Positions 33,262 to 41,977 of a DNA stretch of 48,264 nt are shown in pieces. This DNA is from an uncultured Chitinophagaceae bacterium (lineage in GTDB: Bacteria > Bacteroidota > Bacteroidia > Chitinophagales > Chitinophagaceae). Every line of letters begins with the position of its first letter. Positions within the stretch are counted from its first letter, which is position 1. The stretch spans positions 1-48,264 of the forward strand of contig CAIRTF010000205.1 in NCBI GenBank assembly GCA_903881425.1. Reading direction: 5' to 3'. A program made the translations under genes and the position numbers. The notes below the pieces were generated by a model, which saw only the letters and a program-made list of their open reading frames with translations, was not told the DNA's origin and searched no databases.

Positions 33262-36200
33262 TTAAAAATCCAATCCCAATGCAAAATAAAATAAAGGCGA
33301 TCCTCTGAATATGCCTTTCATTGGCCACCCCAGATCTGCCTTAATAAAATATCCCAACAATGTACTTCTTGCACCAAAACCATAACCCGCAGCAAACGGA
33401 CCTAAGCCACCTGCATCTATTTTAACCAATATCGGATTATTTCCATTCTGTGTTCCATACACTTCAGTTGGACGATGAATACCATTATACTTACCATTCC
33501 ATGCAGTTCCCAGATCAAAGAATTGTGTTAATTGAAAATTTCTTAAAAAGGCATTGTTGATAGGTTTATTGAACAATGTGGTGAACACCGGAAAACGGAA
33601 TTCGCTATTAATAACAAAAGCATTATTACCATTGGCAATATTTTGATTGTATCCACGCATGTTCACTGCCAAAGATTGGAACGCATAAGATTGATCATAG
33701 GCAGGCTGATTGATAGTATTGAACCGTGGATTGATCCATCCATCTACACCACCCAAATAGTAAATAATTTTTTGTGTACCCCAACTAAAATCAGCAGCAG
33801 CTCTTGTTGCCCAAATAAAATTGCGATAGATTTTTTGATAATGTCTTGCATCAAATCCAAAATTATAAGTAGTACTGCTTGTTTTAGCAAGCGGTGTATT
33901 TAAATCAATATAAACTTTCCATCGCGTGCCATTCCAAATATTCTGTGCAGGATTGATAGTATTATCATACACATATTCTAATCTCCCCACATTATACCAT
34001 ACACTACTGTCTTTTTGAGCAAGGCCTGTTGGATCAGGAACACCTGTTCCGTTATTAAATGCACGCACTACACCTTTATCTTGTCTGAGTCCGAGTGTTA
34101 AACGAAGACTTCTTGCTTCATCAAACGGATAAGAAAAATTTAATTGATACAAATTAGTGATCAATGCAGAATTATAATTGGCTAAGTTGCCGGTAAAGAA
34201 TCCGTAATAATTAGACACTTTACTTCTGTAATAAGTTACACCCCAATCCAATCTTTTTCTAAAATTATGAAGAGAGAAGAAAACATCTTTATCATTCAGA
34301 TCAGAACCAAACCGAACACCGCCTACAAATTTAATATCTTCAAACAGATCACTAACACCGGCACGGAAACTCCAATTGAAATCACTTCCGTTATTTAATT
34401 GAATAGGGCCTTGTCCGCCACCATAAGGTTGATAACGATTTACTAAAATATTATTGGTAATACCTGCTAACACATAATCGGCACTGTATTTCATTTTATA
34501 ATTAAACAATTTCATTTTGCTTAACTCGCTGATCTTTGCTTTTTGTGCCGAATTATTAATAGCTTTTATTTTACTGCTGTCTATTTTCTCATCTGCAAAT
34601 TCTGATTGAAAGAAATCTTTTTGTTTATTCTTCAACGAATCCAATGCTGCTTGTTTATACACCGTTGCTTTTCCTGCAGCCGCTTTTTGCTGATCCATGA
34701 TCTTCTTCATGTATTCGGTAGGTCTTGCATTCACATTGCGTTTATTCAATGCCTCCTCATTTACTTTTAATTTATACAAGAACTTGTAATCACCTTCCTG
34801 TCTTGTTTCACTCACTTGTCCGTTATTACCGGCAATTCTTGTTTCTAATAATGATGTTTGATAATTAGTGATCGGGAATGTATAAGTAGAATCGTTATAT
34901 ACTTGAAAATAACTAACACTATCGGGTTCTTGTTTTCGCCAAGCTGCTAAAGTTGAATCTAATTCTTTAGGAACAGGATTGCGTAATACTTCATCGCCAA
35001 TTTGATAAACCGTATCTAATCCGGTTCTCTTCGTGGCAAAGAAACCTGCCCAACGATTGGCCACACCATTTTCATCTGCCACAAATGTGAAGTGATTGGT
35101 ATTGTATTGCATCGGATTAGTGGCATTACCAAACTTCATGTTAGTGAGTTGTGTAATTTGTTTATCCTTTCCTTTATTTAAAATATCTACCAAGAAAATA
35201 TTGAAACGATATTTGCTTGGTAATACGGTATCGTTGTTGGGCGCATTATTACCCGGTCGATTGGAAGAAAAAATAATACCTGAACGATTAGGGAATGAAA
35301 CAAAAGTTGGATTGAGATCATCATAAATATCATTGGTGATCTGCTCTGTTTTTTGTTCTTCAATTTTATAAGAATAAATATCAGAATGTCCATTCTTCAC
35401 TGCACTCATCACCAGTGTATTGGCATCTAACATAAATGATGCATCGAGTATTTGATCGAACCCGGTAATCTCTTGTTTAAATCTTTTGTATTTCGCAATC
35501 GCATCATACACAAACATTTTTGTATGACCCGCCTCCCAATAAATAACCAATAAACGAGTTCCTTTTACATCCCATGCCAGTATCGGATAATTTGGATTAA
35601 TATCACCCTGATGTGTTCTCACCCCTTTATCCAATAGCACTTTCGTGTCGTAAAAATTTTCTACATATTTAACGCGATACACCCCTTTACTGAATTCAAC
35701 TACTGCATAATTATTATTTCTCGGATTAGGGTTTGCCTGAAAACGGAAATAATCATTTTTGGTAACATCTTCACTTACACTCAACGTTCCTTTTGGTGCA
35801 TTCTTACGCTGACGAATATCTTTATAATATTTGTCTTGCTCATAAGTCATAAAATCTGCCAGCACTTCTTTAAATTTCTTTTTACAAATTTTCAAAGAAG
35901 CATTATTCAAATTTTTGTATATGCGTGCCAGGTATAAAAAATAAGTGGTGTTCTCTTTTTTGTATTTCTCTCCGAAATAAAACCAAAATGCATGTCCGGC
36001 TAATGTGGGTTTGGCAAAAGCAAATTGATAAAAATTAGTATAGTCGGCACTGAGCATGGCATTCTTCAATGCATCATCATATTCTGTGCTCCAGTTTTCT
36101 GCGGCATATTCAATATACCCATCGGTTAACCATTTAGGAAGATCTAATAATGCAGAGTTACTGGCCACTTCACCAATATCATCACCAAACAATAAATTAT

Positions 36201-36639
36201 CCGTTAATACTTTGGCAATACCCTGGCGAATTTGCATGCGCAAGTGCTCGTGATTGCCATCAAAAAAAACAACAATCTTATTATTCACCAATTTTGTTAA
36301 ACCACCTGCATTTTGCCAATCAATTCCTAAACCGATATTACTTTGTTTGTAATCGTCGTAAGAATTATACACCACAATATTGGCTCTGCGTTGTAAAGAA
36401 TATTCAATGAATGTTTCAATGCCTTTCAATTCTTCTTCTGCTACTTGTGCTGCAAATTTTCCCAACTCGGTTCCACCCTGCGAAACATAGGTATTGAAAT
36501 TGGGTGATTGATAAAATTTCCAATTGAATTTTTTGAACTGTAATCTGTTCTTTCCATACTCTACCGTATTCACCTGTGCCATTGAAATCAATGGCAATAA
36601 AAACAGTAGGGCCAAAAAATATTTTTTTATTCTGTTCAT
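33262..36639 (-). CDS. Large outer-membrane protein: peptidase-MA-like N-terminus, TolB-like propeller, BamA/D15-type barrel
   Basis: A protein of 1125 residues from ATG 36639 (MNRIKKYFLALLFLLPLISMAQ signal). Residues about 30-260 look like a gluzincin-type domain (FNTYVSQGGTELGKFAAQVAEEELKGIE and LPKWLTDGYIEYAAENW). HEHLRMQIRQGIAKVL stands where HExxH would be expected, so catalysis is unlikely. About 280-480 contains TolB/WD40-like blades (GIIFSSNRPG). From about 700 to the end is a barrel, with FPVFTTLFNKPINNAFLRNFQLTQFFDLGTAW and a final strand ending in Phe (FYFALGLDF), as for BamA substrates. It may act in surface protein assembly or export; this is inferred. Confidence 0.8.
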   Translation of the reverse strand: MNRIKKYFLALLFLLPLISMAQVNTVEYGKNRLQFKKFNWKFYQSPNFNTYVSQGGTELGKFAAQVAEEELKGIETFIEYSLQRRANIVVYNSYDDYKQSNIGLGIDWQNAGGLTKLVNNKIVVFFDGNHEHLRMQIRQGIAKVLTDNLLFGDDIGEVASNSALLDLPKWLTDGYIEYAAENWSTEYDDALKNAMLSADYTNFYQFAFAKPTLAGHAFWFYFGEKYKKENTTYFLYLARIYKNLNNASLKICKKKFKEVLADFMTYEQDKYYKDIRQRKNAPKGTLSVSEDVTKNDYFRFQANPNPRNNNYAVVEFSKGVYRVKYVENFYDTKVLLDKGVRTHQGDINPNYPILAWDVKGTRLLVIYWEAGHTKMFVYDAIAKYKRFKQEITGFDQILDASFMLDANTLVMSAVKNGHSDIYSYKIEEQKTEQITNDIYDDLNPTFVSFPNRSGIIFSSNRPGNNAPNNDTVLPSKYRFNIFLVDILNKGKDKQITQLTNMKFGNATNPMQYNTNHFTFVADENGVANRWAGFFATKRTGLDTVYQIGDEVLRNPVPKELDSTLAAWRKQEPDSVSYFQVYNDSTYTFPITNYQTSLLETRIAGNNGQVSETRQEGDYKFLYKLKVNEEALNKRNVNARPTEYMKKIMDQQKAAAGKATVYKQAALDSLKNKQKDFFQSEFADEKIDSSKIKAINNSAQKAKISELSKMKLFNYKMKYSADYVLAGITNNILVNRYQPYGGGQGPIQLNNGSDFNWSFRAGVSDLFEDIKFVGGVRFGSDLNDKDVFFSLHNFRKRLDWGVTYYRSKVSNYYGFFTGNLANYNSALITNLYQLNFSYPFDEARSLRLTLGLRQDKGVVRAFNNGTGVPDPTGLAQKDSSVWYNVGRLEYVYDNTINPAQNIWNGTRWKVYIDLNTPLAKTSSTTYNFGFDARHYQKIYRNFIWATRAAADFSWGTQKIIYYLGGVDGWINPRFNTINQPAYDQSYAFQSLAVNMRGYNQNIANGNNAFVINSEFRFPVFTTLFNKPINNAFLRNFQLTQFFDLGTAWNGKYNGIHRPTEVYGTQNGNNPILVKIDAGGLGPFAAGYGFGARSTLLGYFIKADLGWPMKGIFRGSPLFYFALGLDF

Positions 36640-36789
36640 TTGCATAACCTCGCTAAATTTAGATACCGATTGAACAATTGAAATAACCATTCACAATTAA
36701 AAGATGAAGTTATTGTTGAAATGGTTTCCATACATTCAATCTCTGTTAAAATTAGGTAATTACTATTAACCAATCAGAAAAATACGTGT

Positions 36790-37425
36790 ATGCTTCAGGT
36801 AAAGTTTTTTTCGTTTAGTCCTGTTCAGGAAAATACCTATGTTTTATTTAACCAATCGGGTAATGCCATCATTATTGATCCCGGTTGCTACTTTGGTGCT
36901 GAGCAGGAAATGTTAAAAGAGTTCCTTAAAAGTAAAAACCTTAGTCCTGTTCAATTAATGAATACACATTGCCATTTAGACCATGTATTCGGACTTAAAT
37001 GGGTTAACGAGGAATTTGGATTAGAACTATATATTCATCCCAACGAAGAAATAATGTTGCAGTTTGCCCCCGAATCAGGTAAAAAATGGGGATTGCCTTT
37101 TGAAAATTACACCGGACCCTTGCATTTTTTACATGAGGGAGATATTATAAAATTAGATGAAGATGAATTAAAAGTAATTGAAGCTCCCGGACATTCACCG
37201 GGCAGTATTTGTTTTTATTGCGAAGCACAAAATTTTATAATCAGCGGCGATGTGTTGTTTAGAGAAAGTATCGGAAGAACAGATTTGCCGGGTGGCAATC
37301 ATGAACAACTGATTAAAAACATCAAAGAAAAATTATTGATATTGCCCGATGAAACTGTTGTGTATTCAGGACATGGTATGCCAACAACCATTGGACATGA
37401 GAAAATGAATAACCCGTTTTTATAA
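36790..37425 (+). CDS. Metallo-beta-lactamase-fold hydrolase (glyoxalase II-like)
   Basis: A 211-residue cytosolic hydrolase. It has the metal motif THCHLDHVFG (about 58-67), a downstream His in APGHSPGSICFYCE (about 135-148), the Asp in ISGDVLFRESIGRTDLPGG, and the final YSGHGMPTTIGHE. This set matches the YcbL-like MBL branch of the glyoxalase II superfamily. The thioester substrate is unknown. No signal peptide is present. A 152-nt spacer with a perfect palindrome separates it from the next gene. Confidence 0.92.
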   Translation: MLQVKFFSFSPVQENTYVLFNQSGNAIIIDPGCYFGAEQEMLKEFLKSKNLSPVQLMNTHCHLDHVFGLKWVNEEFGLELYIHPNEEIMLQFAPESGKKWGLPFENYTGPLHFLHEGDIIKLDEDELKVIEAPGHSPGSICFYCEAQNFIISGDVLFRESIGRTDLPGGNHEQLIKNIKEKLLILPDETVVYSGHGMPTTIGHEKMNNPFL

Positions 37426-37861: not shown

Positions 37862-40039
37862 TCACTCCTTCTCCATCGCCTTTTTATATGCCATAATGAA
37901 AATAGCGCCTAAGTTTTTATACGGCGGTACATAATCATCAAATTTTTCTTTGTATTGTGCCGTAAATTTATTTTCTAAACTCTTCCACATCAAAGGCCAG
38001 TTCAAATCTTTTCCCAAACGCAAACTTTCTGCAATAGCATTAATCAATGCAATATTTACAATGCCCGTGCCCACTTGCTTGGATGCAATGATATGAGCCT
38101 GCGGACAAATATTCAACACTTCATCCAATGCATGATAGCCGCCACAACTGCCCAGCAGCACTACTTTTGAAGAATAAGGCAATTGTTTAATCGTTTGATT
38201 CACATAATAACTATGTCCGCGATGAATAACCACTGTTGGATTCTCTCCAATAGAATCTAAATAATAACCGAGATCATCCTGCGCTTGCTGATCGAGGTCT
38301 TGTTTGGTATCAAATGGTCGGTTGGCATAAATAGTAATCTTGGTTCCTTTTACAGAAGATACTTCGATCCATTCGGGCTTGTTCACAATCTTCCATAAAC
38401 CATTTCTGTAATTCGCCATAAAGGAATTAAATACCGCCAATCCATCTTTATCACCATAAAAAAATTGTTGAATGATAATTTTACCCGATGAATCCTGCAA
38501 TAGTTTTTTGGGCATGATGTACACCGGCGGAATACCCAATGTGGCTGATACATCAATTTTATTAGTGGAATCTTCCGATAAAAAAATGGTATTCAATAAA
38601 TGATAAATAACCGATGCCCTTGCATTTTTTTCTTGTTCAAATAAGTTCAAATTCTTTTTCACTTCGGCCAATATCAATTTCTTAATGGCTTTATCTTCAA
38701 TGCTGGCGTAAGAATCGGCAACATCTACCGCTTCTTCCAATGTATTATCTTTTTCCAAACCATTGGCAAAATTTTTCATCAATTCCACCGCCTCGGGTTG
38801 ATTCATCTTCTTTAAAAAATCATCCAGCACGTTATAGGCTGCTGCCATTTTAATGAACTTCTTATAAAAATCATAATGCACCCAGTTCAATAAAGTATCC
38901 GAACGCTCCACACCCATTCGTTGAAAAATTCTTTTATACACACCCAAATAACTGCTGGTATAAATTTCATCTTCTGCCACCACACATAAGTAATACAATT
39001 CAGTAGCAGTAAGACTATCCAAACATTTGAACCGTACCGCATCTGATTTTTCGTCATGCAATGCATTGATCTGGTCAATATAAATTTCAACGGCTTTGCG
39101 TTTTAATTTTTCAGTAAGCACATGCATCACTATCGGGGTATCGCCATTCTTTGCTCTGGCGGCATAATCAATTTCTGTTCTCACCAATAATTTATAATAC
39201 GCATTGCTGTCTGCTGAAATTTTTTCAATAGAATCGATAGAAATTTTATGATGATAGATATTATCCAAAAAAGGAAAATACACTCTGCCCGTTTTCATGC
39301 CCGCCATTTGACTGATGGTTTTTACCAATGGCTCATTCACTGTTTGAATTCTTTTGCCCAATGAATCGGGTGCAGATGCATAATCATAAAATTTATCCGG
39401 ATTGCGATGTGCCATCACTATGATCAAACTATCTGCAAAAGAAACATTCGGATACTGACTTAATATTTTTAAAATGTTTTGCTGATTTCGCTGACACAGT
39501 TTTAACACCAACACTTCTTTGGAAGCAGGAATACCGATATTATTTTGCAGTGCAAAATTTCTAATCAAAATATTACCCACTTCCATTTCATTTTGCTGAA
39601 CAATGGGAAAGATGGATTGATGATGCAATTCTGCCTGCATGGCTTCTTCAAATGCAATGATCAAATCGCTTAATAAAATTCCTTTGATGAGTTTTGATTG
39701 ATACCCATTCTTAAAATCGGTTAGCATATCATCAATACCTCGCAACCATTTATATTTTCCGCTTACATCAATCGTGCTATCCATTTCTATTTCAGCTCGC
39801 ATATTATTGATGCGTACTTTCAACATTTGATGGATTTGCAGATTTACATCCAAATCATTCGAAGCAGTAAAAATGGTGTCCTTTTTATTATTGAGTTGAA
39901 TGATGGCTTTTTGCGAAGCGATGATCTTGTCATGAAACAATTGCCGCATTTGCGGAATGGGCGGAATGGTAATGGCCGTTTGCGTGATACCGCAAGCGCA
40001 GATCAATAACCCTATGAGTAAAAAGTATAATTTCTTCAT
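37862..40039 (-). CDS. Exported protein with a C-terminal caspase/CHAT-like His-Cys pattern
   Basis: A 725-residue protein from ATG 40039 (MKKLYFLLIGLLICACGITQ, a signal with a possible lipobox ICAC). Most of it is helical and unrecognised. The last 130 residues have hydrophobic strand + HRGHS (TVVIHRGHSYYV, His near 606/609). A second strand + Cys follows 25 residues later (KVVLLGSCGGYHALDEVL, Cys near 632). This is the clan CD arrangement seen in caspases and CHAT peptidases (strand-H-x-G-H, then strand-x-x-C-x-x-G). I infer a possible cysteine peptidase or an inactive relative at the cell envelope. The gene is divergent from the response regulator gene. Confidence 0.65.
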   Translation of the reverse strand: MKKLYFLLIGLLICACGITQTAITIPPIPQMRQLFHDKIIASQKAIIQLNNKKDTIFTASNDLDVNLQIHQMLKVRINNMRAEIEMDSTIDVSGKYKWLRGIDDMLTDFKNGYQSKLIKGILLSDLIIAFEEAMQAELHHQSIFPIVQQNEMEVGNILIRNFALQNNIGIPASKEVLVLKLCQRNQQNILKILSQYPNVSFADSLIIVMAHRNPDKFYDYASAPDSLGKRIQTVNEPLVKTISQMAGMKTGRVYFPFLDNIYHHKISIDSIEKISADSNAYYKLLVRTEIDYAARAKNGDTPIVMHVLTEKLKRKAVEIYIDQINALHDEKSDAVRFKCLDSLTATELYYLCVVAEDEIYTSSYLGVYKRIFQRMGVERSDTLLNWVHYDFYKKFIKMAAAYNVLDDFLKKMNQPEAVELMKNFANGLEKDNTLEEAVDVADSYASIEDKAIKKLILAEVKKNLNLFEQEKNARASVIYHLLNTIFLSEDSTNKIDVSATLGIPPVYIMPKKLLQDSSGKIIIQQFFYGDKDGLAVFNSFMANYRNGLWKIVNKPEWIEVSSVKGTKITIYANRPFDTKQDLDQQAQDDLGYYLDSIGENPTVVIHRGHSYYVNQTIKQLPYSSKVVLLGSCGGYHALDEVLNICPQAHIIASKQVGTGIVNIALINAIAESLRLGKDLNWPLMWKSLENKFTAQYKEKFDDYVPPYKNLGAIFIMAYKKAMEKE

Positions 40040-40143
40040 CAATTTGCTTCTTGGACAAAAATACTGTCATTCTCCTTACCCTAAACGAATGAGTTAACAA
40101 TTAGATAATAATTACAAATACCGTTTTTGCAAGAACAGAAAGT

Positions 40144-40151
40144 TAATTTTG
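40144..40151 (+). promoter_or_regulatory. -7 box TAATTTTG upstream of the response regulator
   Basis: Exact TAnnTTTG, 18 nt before ATG 40170. A TTG at 40127-40129 is only 14 nt upstream, shorter than the usual spacer. Confidence 0.5.
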
Positions 40152-40169
40152 TGTAAATACAACGTTACC

Positions 40170-40847
40170 ATGGAAGTTAGACCCAAAAGAATTTTGATTG
40201 CTGACGATGAACCGGATATTTTAGAGATCATAAATTACAACCTTTCCAAAGAAGGATACGAAGTATACACCGCCAAAGATGGTAATGAAGCCATTGAAAG
40301 AGCCAAACAACTAAACCCCGACCTGATTATTTTAGACGTAATGATGCCGAAGAAAACAGGCGTAGAAGTTTGTCAGATTCTTCGTTCTCAATCCATGTTT
40401 CAAGATACACTCATTATTTTCTTAACGGCATTGAGTGATGAAGCCTCACATATTAAAGGATTGGAAACCGGTGCCGATGATTATGTAAGTAAACCCATCA
40501 GTCCGAAAATTTTATCGAGCAGAGTGAATGCCTTATTCAGAAGAGTAAACAAAGATGAAGGCAAAACATTAAGAATAGGCAATATTAATATCGATCCGGT
40601 AAAATTTGTAGTGAGCATCGATAACAATGAAGTAGTATTAGCCAAAAAGGAATTTGAATTATTATACTTACTTGCCTCTAAACCGGGCAGGGTTTTTTTA
40701 CGCAACGAAATACTCTCTCAAGTTTGGGGAACAGATGTAATTGTTGGCGACAGAACCATTGATGTACATATAAGAAAGATACGCCAGAAGTTAGGCGTGG
40801 ATTGCATTACAACCGTTAAAGGTGTAGGTTATAAATTTGAAATGTAA
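40170..40847 (+). CDS. PhoB/OmpR-family response regulator
   Basis: A 225-residue regulator. The receiver domain has the acidic pocket ADDEPD (11-16), the phospho-acceptor Asp56 (LIILDVMMP) and Lys in VSKPISPK near 108. The OmpR-type winged helix (about 130-222) has RNEILSQVWG and DRTIDVHIRKIRQKLG. ATG 40170 is chosen; a TTG 21 nt upstream overlaps the -7 box. The cognate kinase starts 80 nt downstream, so the pair is PhoB/PhoR-like. Targets cannot be inferred. Confidence 0.94.
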   Translation: MEVRPKRILIADDEPDILEIINYNLSKEGYEVYTAKDGNEAIERAKQLNPDLIILDVMMPKKTGVEVCQILRSQSMFQDTLIIFLTALSDEASHIKGLETGADDYVSKPISPKILSSRVNALFRRVNKDEGKTLRIGNINIDPVKFVVSIDNNEVVLAKKEFELLYLLASKPGRVFLRNEILSQVWGTDVIVGDRTIDVHIRKIRQKLGVDCITTVKGVGYKFEM

Positions 40848-40927: not shown

Positions 40928-41977
40928 ATGTTCAACACCAAAAATCTTTCTCCCAAACAATTATCTGCATTAACAGCAATGTTCTTGGCCATTCCTATCG
41001 GCATTGCATTTTATATCATTGAAAATATCTGGTGGATCGGTGTAGCTGCATTGATCATCACATTCATTGGCAGTTATTATCTCATCAGTTTTGTATTGGA
41101 ATGGTTTATCTATCGAAAAATAAAACTTATTTATAAATTCATCTATCAAACAAAAGCCAGTAAAAGAGAAGAGACTTATTATAAATATATTTTACCGCAG
41201 AAAGGTATTGATGAAGTAAGAGAAGATGTAGAAAAATGGGCAGAACAAAGAAGTGCAGAAATAGAATTATTAAAAAGCAATGAAGCTTACAGAAAAGAAT
41301 TTTTACAAAATCTGGCGCATGAATTTAAGACACCCATCTTCGCCATTCAGGGTTATGTAGATACGCTATTGGATGGCGCCATAAACAATCCGCAAGTGAG
41401 TAAAAAGTTTTTAGAGAATGCTGCACGCAATGTAGAGCGCATGGTGAACTTGGTGGAAGACTTAGACGAAATATCTAAATTAGAAAGCGGAGAACAACCT
41501 TTGTATAAAGAGAGTTTTATTATTCAGGATTTAATTAAAGAAGTGTTTGAAACATTATCTATTAAAATGACGAGCAGAAATATTAAATGCAGTATTAAAA
41601 AAGGTTGCGAAAGTCCGATCACTGTTTTTGCAGATAAAGAAAAGATTCATCAGGTATTAAATAATTTGGTAGAGAATGCCACCAAATACGGCAAAGAGAA
41701 TGGCAGCATTACTGCCAGCATTTATAAAACCGATGGTAAACATGTGTTAATAGAAATCAGTGATGATGGTATTGGTATTGCAGAAGAACATTTATCGAGA
41801 GTGTTTGAACGTTTTTACAGAACCGATCGCGGACGCAGCAGAAATGTGGGAGGTACAGGATTGGGATTAGCCATTTGCAAACATATCATTGAAGCACATC
41901 ATCAAACCATACATGTGCGCAGCAAATTGGAAGTAGGCACTACCATTGGGTTTACATTGGATACAAAGAAGGATTGA
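40928..41977 (+). CDS. PhoR-like sensor histidine kinase
   Basis: A 349-residue inner-membrane kinase. Two membrane helices (about 13-32 and 34-60) leave almost no periplasmic domain, so sensing is probably through the membrane or cytoplasm. The HisKA box is FLQNLAHEFKTP (His131). Then come the N box NNLVENATKYG, G1 DDGIGI, F box VFERFYRTD and G2 GGTGLGLAI. It forms a two-component pair with the upstream regulator. The start codon abuts a G+C-rich inverted repeat. It ends 4 nt from the converging MG2-type gene. Confidence 0.94.
   Translation: MFNTKNLSPKQLSALTAMFLAIPIGIAFYIIENIWWIGVAALIITFIGSYYLISFVLEWFIYRKIKLIYKFIYQTKASKREETYYKYILPQKGIDEVREDVEKWAEQRSAEIELLKSNEAYRKEFLQNLAHEFKTPIFAIQGYVDTLLDGAINNPQVSKKFLENAARNVERMVNLVEDLDEISKLESGEQPLYKESFIIQDLIKEVFETLSIKMTSRNIKCSIKKGCESPITVFADKEKIHQVLNNLVENATKYGKENGSITASIYKTDGKHVLIEISDDGIGIAEEHLSRVFERFYRTDRGRSRNVGGTGLGLAICKHIIEAHHQTIHVRSKLEVGTTIGFTLDTKKD

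Follow-up and report, generated by a model that had tools for sequence, protein, structure and literature searches.

The window, by which is meant the whole stretch of DNA analysed here, covers 48,264 nucleotides of contig CAIRTF010000205.1 from an uncultured Chitinophagaceae bacterium, and on its reverse strand it carries a gene for an exported caspase-like protein, with the genes of a two-component system on the forward strand (Table 1). The start codon of the caspase-like gene is more likely the ATG at 40039 than the TTG at 40042, whilst residue numbers (His607, His610, Cys633) follow the TTG numbering throughout. Eighty loci were compared, several of which end at contig ends. A 1142-residue protein (33262-36690, reverse strand), with no Pfam match at E ≤ 0.01, is found beside the caspase-like gene in 41/80 loci, and a metallo-beta-lactamase-fold hydrolase (36790-37425), present in 43/80 loci, usually lies between the two.

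Table 1. Features of the caspase-like gene and its neighbours, in window coordinates.
Feature	Position	Strand	Basis
Exported caspase-like protein	37862..40042	-	Open reading frame; 725 aa from ATG 40039, 726 from TTG 40042
Signal peptide	39965..40039	-	Hydropathy rule; boundary approximate
Helical N-terminal region, about residues 27-504, no recognised family	38531..39964	-	DSSP on AlphaFold2 model; no Pfam over cut-off
C-terminal caspase/CHAT/separase-like domain, about residues 505-718	37889..38530	-	AlphaFold2; VIA-align
D531-K-D533-G534 loop after first strand	38441..38452	-	D531, D533 and G534 in 51/51 relatives
H607-R-G-H610 (His607 38222-38224; putative catalytic His610 38213-38215)	38213..38224	-	105/105 rows identical; DSSP
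Putative catalytic Cys633	38144..38146	-	105/105 rows; 51/51 other-family relatives
TATTTTTG, Bacteroidota-type -7 element of caspase-like gene	40056..40063	-	Sequence
Conserved intergenic box TTAACAATTAnATAATA, probable operator	40094..40110	+	66/69 intergenic regions
TAATTTTG, probable -7 element of response-regulator gene	40144..40151	+	Sequence; 33 bp from box
OmpR-type response regulator (likely ATG 40170)	40149..40847	+	Pfam Response_reg, Trans_reg_C
Histidine kinase, membrane part, no room for external sensor domain	40928..41977	+	Pfam HisKA, HATPase_c; hydropathy

The protein begins with a signal-peptide-like N-terminus, which the same hydropathy rule recognises in 101 of 105 full-length rows and in 42 of the 56 frames from loci fetched for other families and second copies, bearing out the proposal of an earlier sequence-only reading that the protein is exported. 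The 105 rows were obtained by dropping 8 short frames from 112 homologous ones, include the query and its own locus, and comprise 86 distinct rows over the last 600 residues. The sequence-only reading had also described the remainder of the protein as helical and unrecognised, which agrees with both the AlphaFold2 model, where, ahead of residue 522, DSSP assigns no strand as long as three residues, and the family searches, where no match reached the cut-offs shown. No internal repeats were found in the helical region by profile self-comparison, and no C-terminal membrane helix by hydropathy. Export as a Type IX secretion substrate was rejected, as the model ends with the caspase-like domain and a helix (711-725) and has no C-terminal beta-sandwich secretion domain.

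AlphaFold2 models were built for the whole protein, from a 61-row alignment (the window protein and 60 of the 80 loci, leaving out near-copies, fragments and locus L077), and for the C-terminal domain alone, from 60 rows; pLDDT was 91 for both, with a pTM of 0.79 for the whole protein and 0.89 for the domain. The elements of the domain follow one another as strand, helix, three strands, helix, the strand leading to His610, helix, the strand leading to Cys633, helix, strand and helix. Seven strands of at least three residues were counted by DSSP, in an order that fits the clan CD sheet when judged without strand directions. Candidates supplied by Foldseek were then compared using VIA-align, with rows within one Z unit counted as tied. 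For the domain model the top five rows were SAVED-CHAT (Z 10.5, 158 residues, 3.2 Å), separase (5fby, Z 9.2, 162 residues, 3.7 Å) and C11 (8.9, 8.8 and 8.2), and for the whole model the top six were SAVED-CHAT (10.3), separase (10.0 and 9.1), DdvA (9.1 and 8.9) and TPR-CHAT (8.9). The TPR-CHAT and DdvA rows are absent from the domain-model list, which is not evidence against them. The structural check that the sequence-only reading had proposed, a comparison with CHAT and caspase folds, returned clan CD rows at the head of both VIA-align runs. SAVED-CHAT is the top row with both models, and a CHAT-type fold is unconfirmed by Foldseek at E ≤ 0.001, since neither model gave a PDB match at that threshold and the best rows were mostly GTPases (E 2.9e-2 and 1.5e-3).

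The motifs TVVIHRGHS and VVLLGSCGG, in which the earlier reading had seen a strand-His and strand-Cys layout, are both present within 37862-38240, and His610 and Cys633 are spaced 23 residues apart. The invariant Gly609 stands before His610 and a serine after it (GHS), a different order from the His-Gly usually seen at the catalytic histidine of clan CD enzymes. All 105 full-length rows share His607, Arg608, Gly609, His610, Ser611, Tyr612, Gly631, Cys633 and Gly634, and the 51 relatives from other families all retain Cys633 and the His607 of HRG, with His610 present in 47 of them, so that the expected conservation of histidine and cysteine among homologues is indeed seen. A loose strand-His...strand-Cys pattern, composed after the motif had been seen, matches 104/112 homologous open frames vs 4/3840 other frames of the same loci. 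In clan CD, sheet strands 3 and 4 each bear one residue of the dyad at the C-terminal end (PMC4357240), and in the model His610 likewise follows directly after strand 604-608 and Cys633 directly after strand 627-630. The call of a clan CD fold rests on the structural match and the invariant dyad together, and the predicted fold appears closest to clan CD by structure comparison. Since this is the closest fold and both residues are conserved, neither a fold unlike that of caspases nor a loss of the dyad speaks against the sequence-only reading.

The loop D531-K-D533-G534, which is also well conserved, was considered as a calcium-binding site, a reading that was dropped as the first position of the familiar EF-hand layout is missing. 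PMC4357240 places S1-pocket residues of clan CD enzymes near the loop after the first strand, and from this we infer that the loop, which is close to that position in the model, may have a comparable role.

No link to any clan CD family was seen at the sequence level. The window protein and ten further members gave no Pfam score above a family's cut-off, no NCBIfam family passed its cut-off in three members, and the Pfam rows at E ≤ 0.1 for seven other-family relatives all lay below cut-off. DUF7923 was rejected, having weak rows in 26/61 members at E ≤ 1 (best 0.0038) that fall in the helical region and reach ≤15 bits vs a cut-off of 24.5 where a cut-off was shown; 6PF2K, whose row in one member has the lowest E of all (6.2e-4), was likewise rejected, being still under cut-off. 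PF12770, the CHAT family, is not among the 25 of 44 weak Pfam families listed for the 61 members and matched neither the window protein nor ten further members nor anything else in the window's genome, whilst the PF12770 search did find CHAT proteins in 17/39 relatives. Comparison of the family profile by hhalign with CHAT domains from the relatives' genomes gave a probability of 0.05%, or 0.7% with a more diverse query, the latter being a short and insignificant alignment that pairs Cys633 with the CHAT cysteine. With no PF12770 match and an insignificant profile comparison, CHAT membership by sequence was rejected. When PDB sequences were searched with the 61-member profile, seven matched at E ≤ 10, none convincingly; no separase or C11 chain was among these seven, nor was there a Pfam match to either, meaning that the likeness to separase (C50) and to C11 clostripain is structural only. 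A role in anti-phage defence was rejected, as PADLOC returned no match for three members. No paper on the caspase-like family was found in the literature searched, by title or abstract start.

Of the known systems, CHAT proteins (SAVED-CHAT, the TPR-CHAT of Craspase and same-order PF12770 proteins) provide the best structural match, and they too have another domain preceding the C-terminal caspase-like domain. They differ in that neither the window protein nor any of ten further members has a TPR score above the cut-off, in that the CHAT sequences compared mostly read [TS]H[GA] at the position where the caspase-like family has GHS, and in that hydropathy shows no membrane helix at the C-terminus of the caspase-like protein. 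Many same-order TPR-CHAT proteins look exported: when 20 CHAT proteins (L164-L183) were extended upstream, an N-terminal hydrophobic segment was seen by eye in 14, and 11 had a strongly hydrophobic stretch (hydropathy ≥2.0) close to the C-terminus. The 14/20 figure suggests that exported helices joined to a CHAT-type domain are common in the order, and a secreted Bacteroides C11 protease is also among the structural matches, as judged from entry titles. The view of the sequence-only reading that an exported enzyme of such a fold with a large helical region would be unusual was therefore not upheld. One same-order genome contains 16 PF12770 matches.

Separase, the second structural match, also has a long helical region ahead of its catalytic domain, as the caspase-like family does; it differs in giving no match in the PDB sequence search, and PMC4357240 gives it as absent from bacteria. 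The Bacteroidota C11 proteases iotapain and fragipain (Z 8.9 and 8.8) are secreted clan CD cysteine proteases from the same phylum, but these show no sequence match, and their solved chains, of about 350 residues, lack the 480-residue helical region. DdvA (PDB 8rw5 and 8rot) matches the C-terminal domain with Z 9.1 (rmsd 10.3 Å) and 8.9 (rmsd 3.4 Å). By its entry title it is a transmembrane anti-sigma factor, and it differs in being one membrane-spanning protein that targets a sigma factor. This match may be a further link between a caspase-like fold and membrane signalling; no papers naming DdvA were found in the literature search.

Matches to the caspase-like protein were found in 283 of 294 sampled genomes of the window's family, Chitinophagaceae. 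In phylum-wide samples the whole protein matched 11/296 genomes, with a single sequence and a profile alike, and the C-terminal domain profile 12/345, all in the window's family. A sample of the order Chitinophagales gave 104/248 genomes with the domain profile, including members of seven other families; none of the genomes sampled beyond the order had a match. The caspase-like family has the look of a distinct clan CD lineage, found in these samples in a single order.

To follow the relatives in other families 34 loci were fetched, of which 4 proved to be from the window's family, the remaining 30 coming from 28 genomes. A tandem pair is present in 20/30, with a long member (a frame of about 930-1160 codons) directly upstream of a short one (about 680-780 codons) and the frames touching or overlapping; in one further locus long and short are divergent, and nine have a single member. 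The helical-region profile gave a second weak match in 4/8 long members checked (domain E ≤ 0.0015). A tree built from 72 C-terminal domains places the long members together (support 100/97) and separates them from the window's family (99/95). Cys633 is kept in 27/27 short and 24/24 long members, whilst His610 is kept in 27/27 short and 20/24 long members, being replaced by Leu in three and by Tyr in one. The long members in question, at L205, L223, L224 and L211, may be pseudoenzyme partners of the intact short member. Two short members in tandem also occur within the window's family (L215, 6358-11086; G086; G259), apparently through a separate duplication.

The two-component neighbour, mentioned only in passing by the sequence-only reading as a divergent regulator, proved to be the strongest clue: an OmpR-type response regulator followed by a histidine kinase. 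The regulator adjoins the caspase-like gene, divergently, in 71/80 loci, and the kinase is present in 64/80. A regulator, a kinase or both are adjacent in 9 of the 30 other-family loci (L209, L211, L220, L221, L222, L225, L226, L231 and L237), where they run in the same direction as the caspase-like gene; the order is regulator-kinase-long-short in L220 and L221, and in L237 the kinase and caspase-like open frames overlap by 4 bp. L232, with a kinase-like frame nearby, was left out of this count, and at 21/30 loci neither a regulator nor a kinase ortholog was recognised beside the gene. This recurrence in a different orientation argues for a functional tie to the two-component system.

The kinase has, by rough hydropathy, no external sensing domain between its membrane helices, as in intramembrane-sensing kinases. 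Of 97 kinases examined in the same way, 82 have at least two segments with ≤13 residues between the last two, and 15 have a single segment. Kinases of this type depend on membrane changes and accessory proteins (PMC7492735). In LiaFSR, too, a kinase without an external sensing domain stands beside a conserved extra gene. The caspase-like locus differs from LiaFSR in that its regulator is OmpR-type, and an accessory role for the caspase-like protein is putative. LiaF, moreover, is not known to be caspase-like.

The search for the kinase covered 34 genomes. In 7/7 same-class genomes outside the order it was found near full-length at 38-46% identity, and the same seven had no match to the caspase-like protein. 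Among 11 family members without a caspase-like match, the kinase is full-length at 51-61% identity in 4, split in one and weak in 6; four of these six genomes are 60-81% complete and the others 93 and 95%. As judged from these sequences, the kinase is not dependent on the caspase-like protein.

The region between the divergent genes contains a conserved box, TTAACAATTAnATAATA, which is found in 66 of 69 intergenic regions (71 loci minus two omitted for length), or in 65/69 with a stricter core. We take TAnnTTTG to be the Bacteroidota-type -7 consensus, and applied it on the side of the caspase-like gene to TATTTTTG; the probable -7 element of the regulator gene is TAATTTTG. On the regulator side, TAnnTTTG lies 30-34 bp from the box in 65 of the 66 loci with a box. 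On the caspase-gene side, 44 loci have a first TAnnTTTG no more than 60 bp away, and the spacings gather around 13, 23, 31 and 42 bp. Compared with uniform spacing, 0, 0, 1 and 0 of 5000 null sets did as well after thinning at 95, 75, 65 and 60% identity, whilst thinning at 55%, to 11 loci, left 410/5000 null sets as good, which is not significant. The best period is 9.2-9.6 bp, not 10.5. The spacings resemble helical phasing, which is suggestive of a face-dependent action on the promoter of the caspase-like gene too.

A perfect copy of TTAACAATTAnATAATA is unique in the window's genome. Allowing ≤2 mismatches, 26 genome matches were found vs 23 in a reversed control, and as this hardly exceeds the control no regulon can be named. 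Next to the genes of other families, and next to four extra copies within the family, no box was seen; two-mismatch matches there lay at least 1.8 kb from the gene, one of them about 1.8 kb off in L236.

The reading that we favour, and hold to be moderately probable as a whole, is that of an exported clan CD peptidase-like protein tied to the neighbouring two-component system and acting in envelope proteolysis. The protein would belong to a clan CD lineage of cysteine peptidase-like proteins, exported through Sec and probably residing in the periplasm, and its helical N-terminal part would probably bind a ligand or partner and control the peptidase. The C-terminal domain, with its His610/Cys633 dyad, would probably then cleave a few envelope proteins, much as CHAT and separase domains cut when the other parts of their proteins direct them. 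Most likely, the intergenic box is the binding site through which the response regulator governs its own operon, and probably the caspase-like gene as well, whilst the exported protein may feed back on the kinase as an accessory sensor, a role suggested by the kinase being without an external sensor domain. Such an arrangement would suggest a proteolytic branch of cell-envelope signalling.

The main rival to this reading keeps the clan CD fold but takes the protein to bind or scaffold, with the histidine and cysteine serving a structural or ligand-binding purpose and no proteolysis taking place. The four of 24 long relatives that have Leu or Tyr for His610 retain Cys633 and the GSCG motif, and His607 within HRG is better kept than His610 among the 51 relatives, both of which would fit a scaffold; none of the 105 full-length rows, however, and none of the 27 short relatives from other families lacks His610, and we regard this rival as doubtful. 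A GTPase-like or other Rossmann-type fold with a superficial resemblance to caspases appears very unlikely, even with small GTPases placed first by Foldseek (best E 1.5e-3) and reaching, in VIA-align, the level of the weaker clan CD rows. With the domain model GTPases have Z 8.0 or less, and a second separase entry, at 7.5, falls in the same range; with the whole model a GTPase at 8.4 outranks other rows of TPR-CHAT and C11 (8.2 and 8.0). Given ties within one Z unit, only SAVED-CHAT and separase are clear of the GTPases, and C11 is tied with the best of them. Nevertheless, clan CD heads both VIA-align runs, the invariant dyad is found at the expected strand ends, and a P-loop pattern is found neither in the window protein nor within the final 235 residues of any of the 105 rows.

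It could also be that an ordinary periplasmic protease lies near the two-component system by chance, without a functional link. The presence of the kinase in 7/7 same-class genomes outside the order, all without a caspase-like match, means that the two-component system appears older and independent, and this together with the 21/30 other-family loci in which the system is unrecognised beside the gene would agree with a chance neighbour. Against this, adjacency holds in 71/80 loci and arises again in other families in another orientation, as in L220 and L221, which makes a chance neighbour rather improbable in our view. A bolder form of the favoured envelope-proteolysis reading, which we consider speculative and unlikely to hold in full, is that the periplasmic module supplies the extracytoplasmic sensing which an intramembrane-type two-component system lacks, so that kinase signalling is set by proteolysis of the caspase type within the envelope; in many families this module would be a tandem of a short enzyme that is still intact and a longer partner whose histidine has been lost in some lineages.

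These findings add a clan CD-like lineage that is near universal in one bacterial family and nameless in the libraries searched. If the link to the two-component system is real, caspase-type proteolysis would be tied to envelope signalling through a kinase without an external sensor of its own, and the tandem pairs would show an enzyme and a partly decayed partner arising inside one bacterial order.
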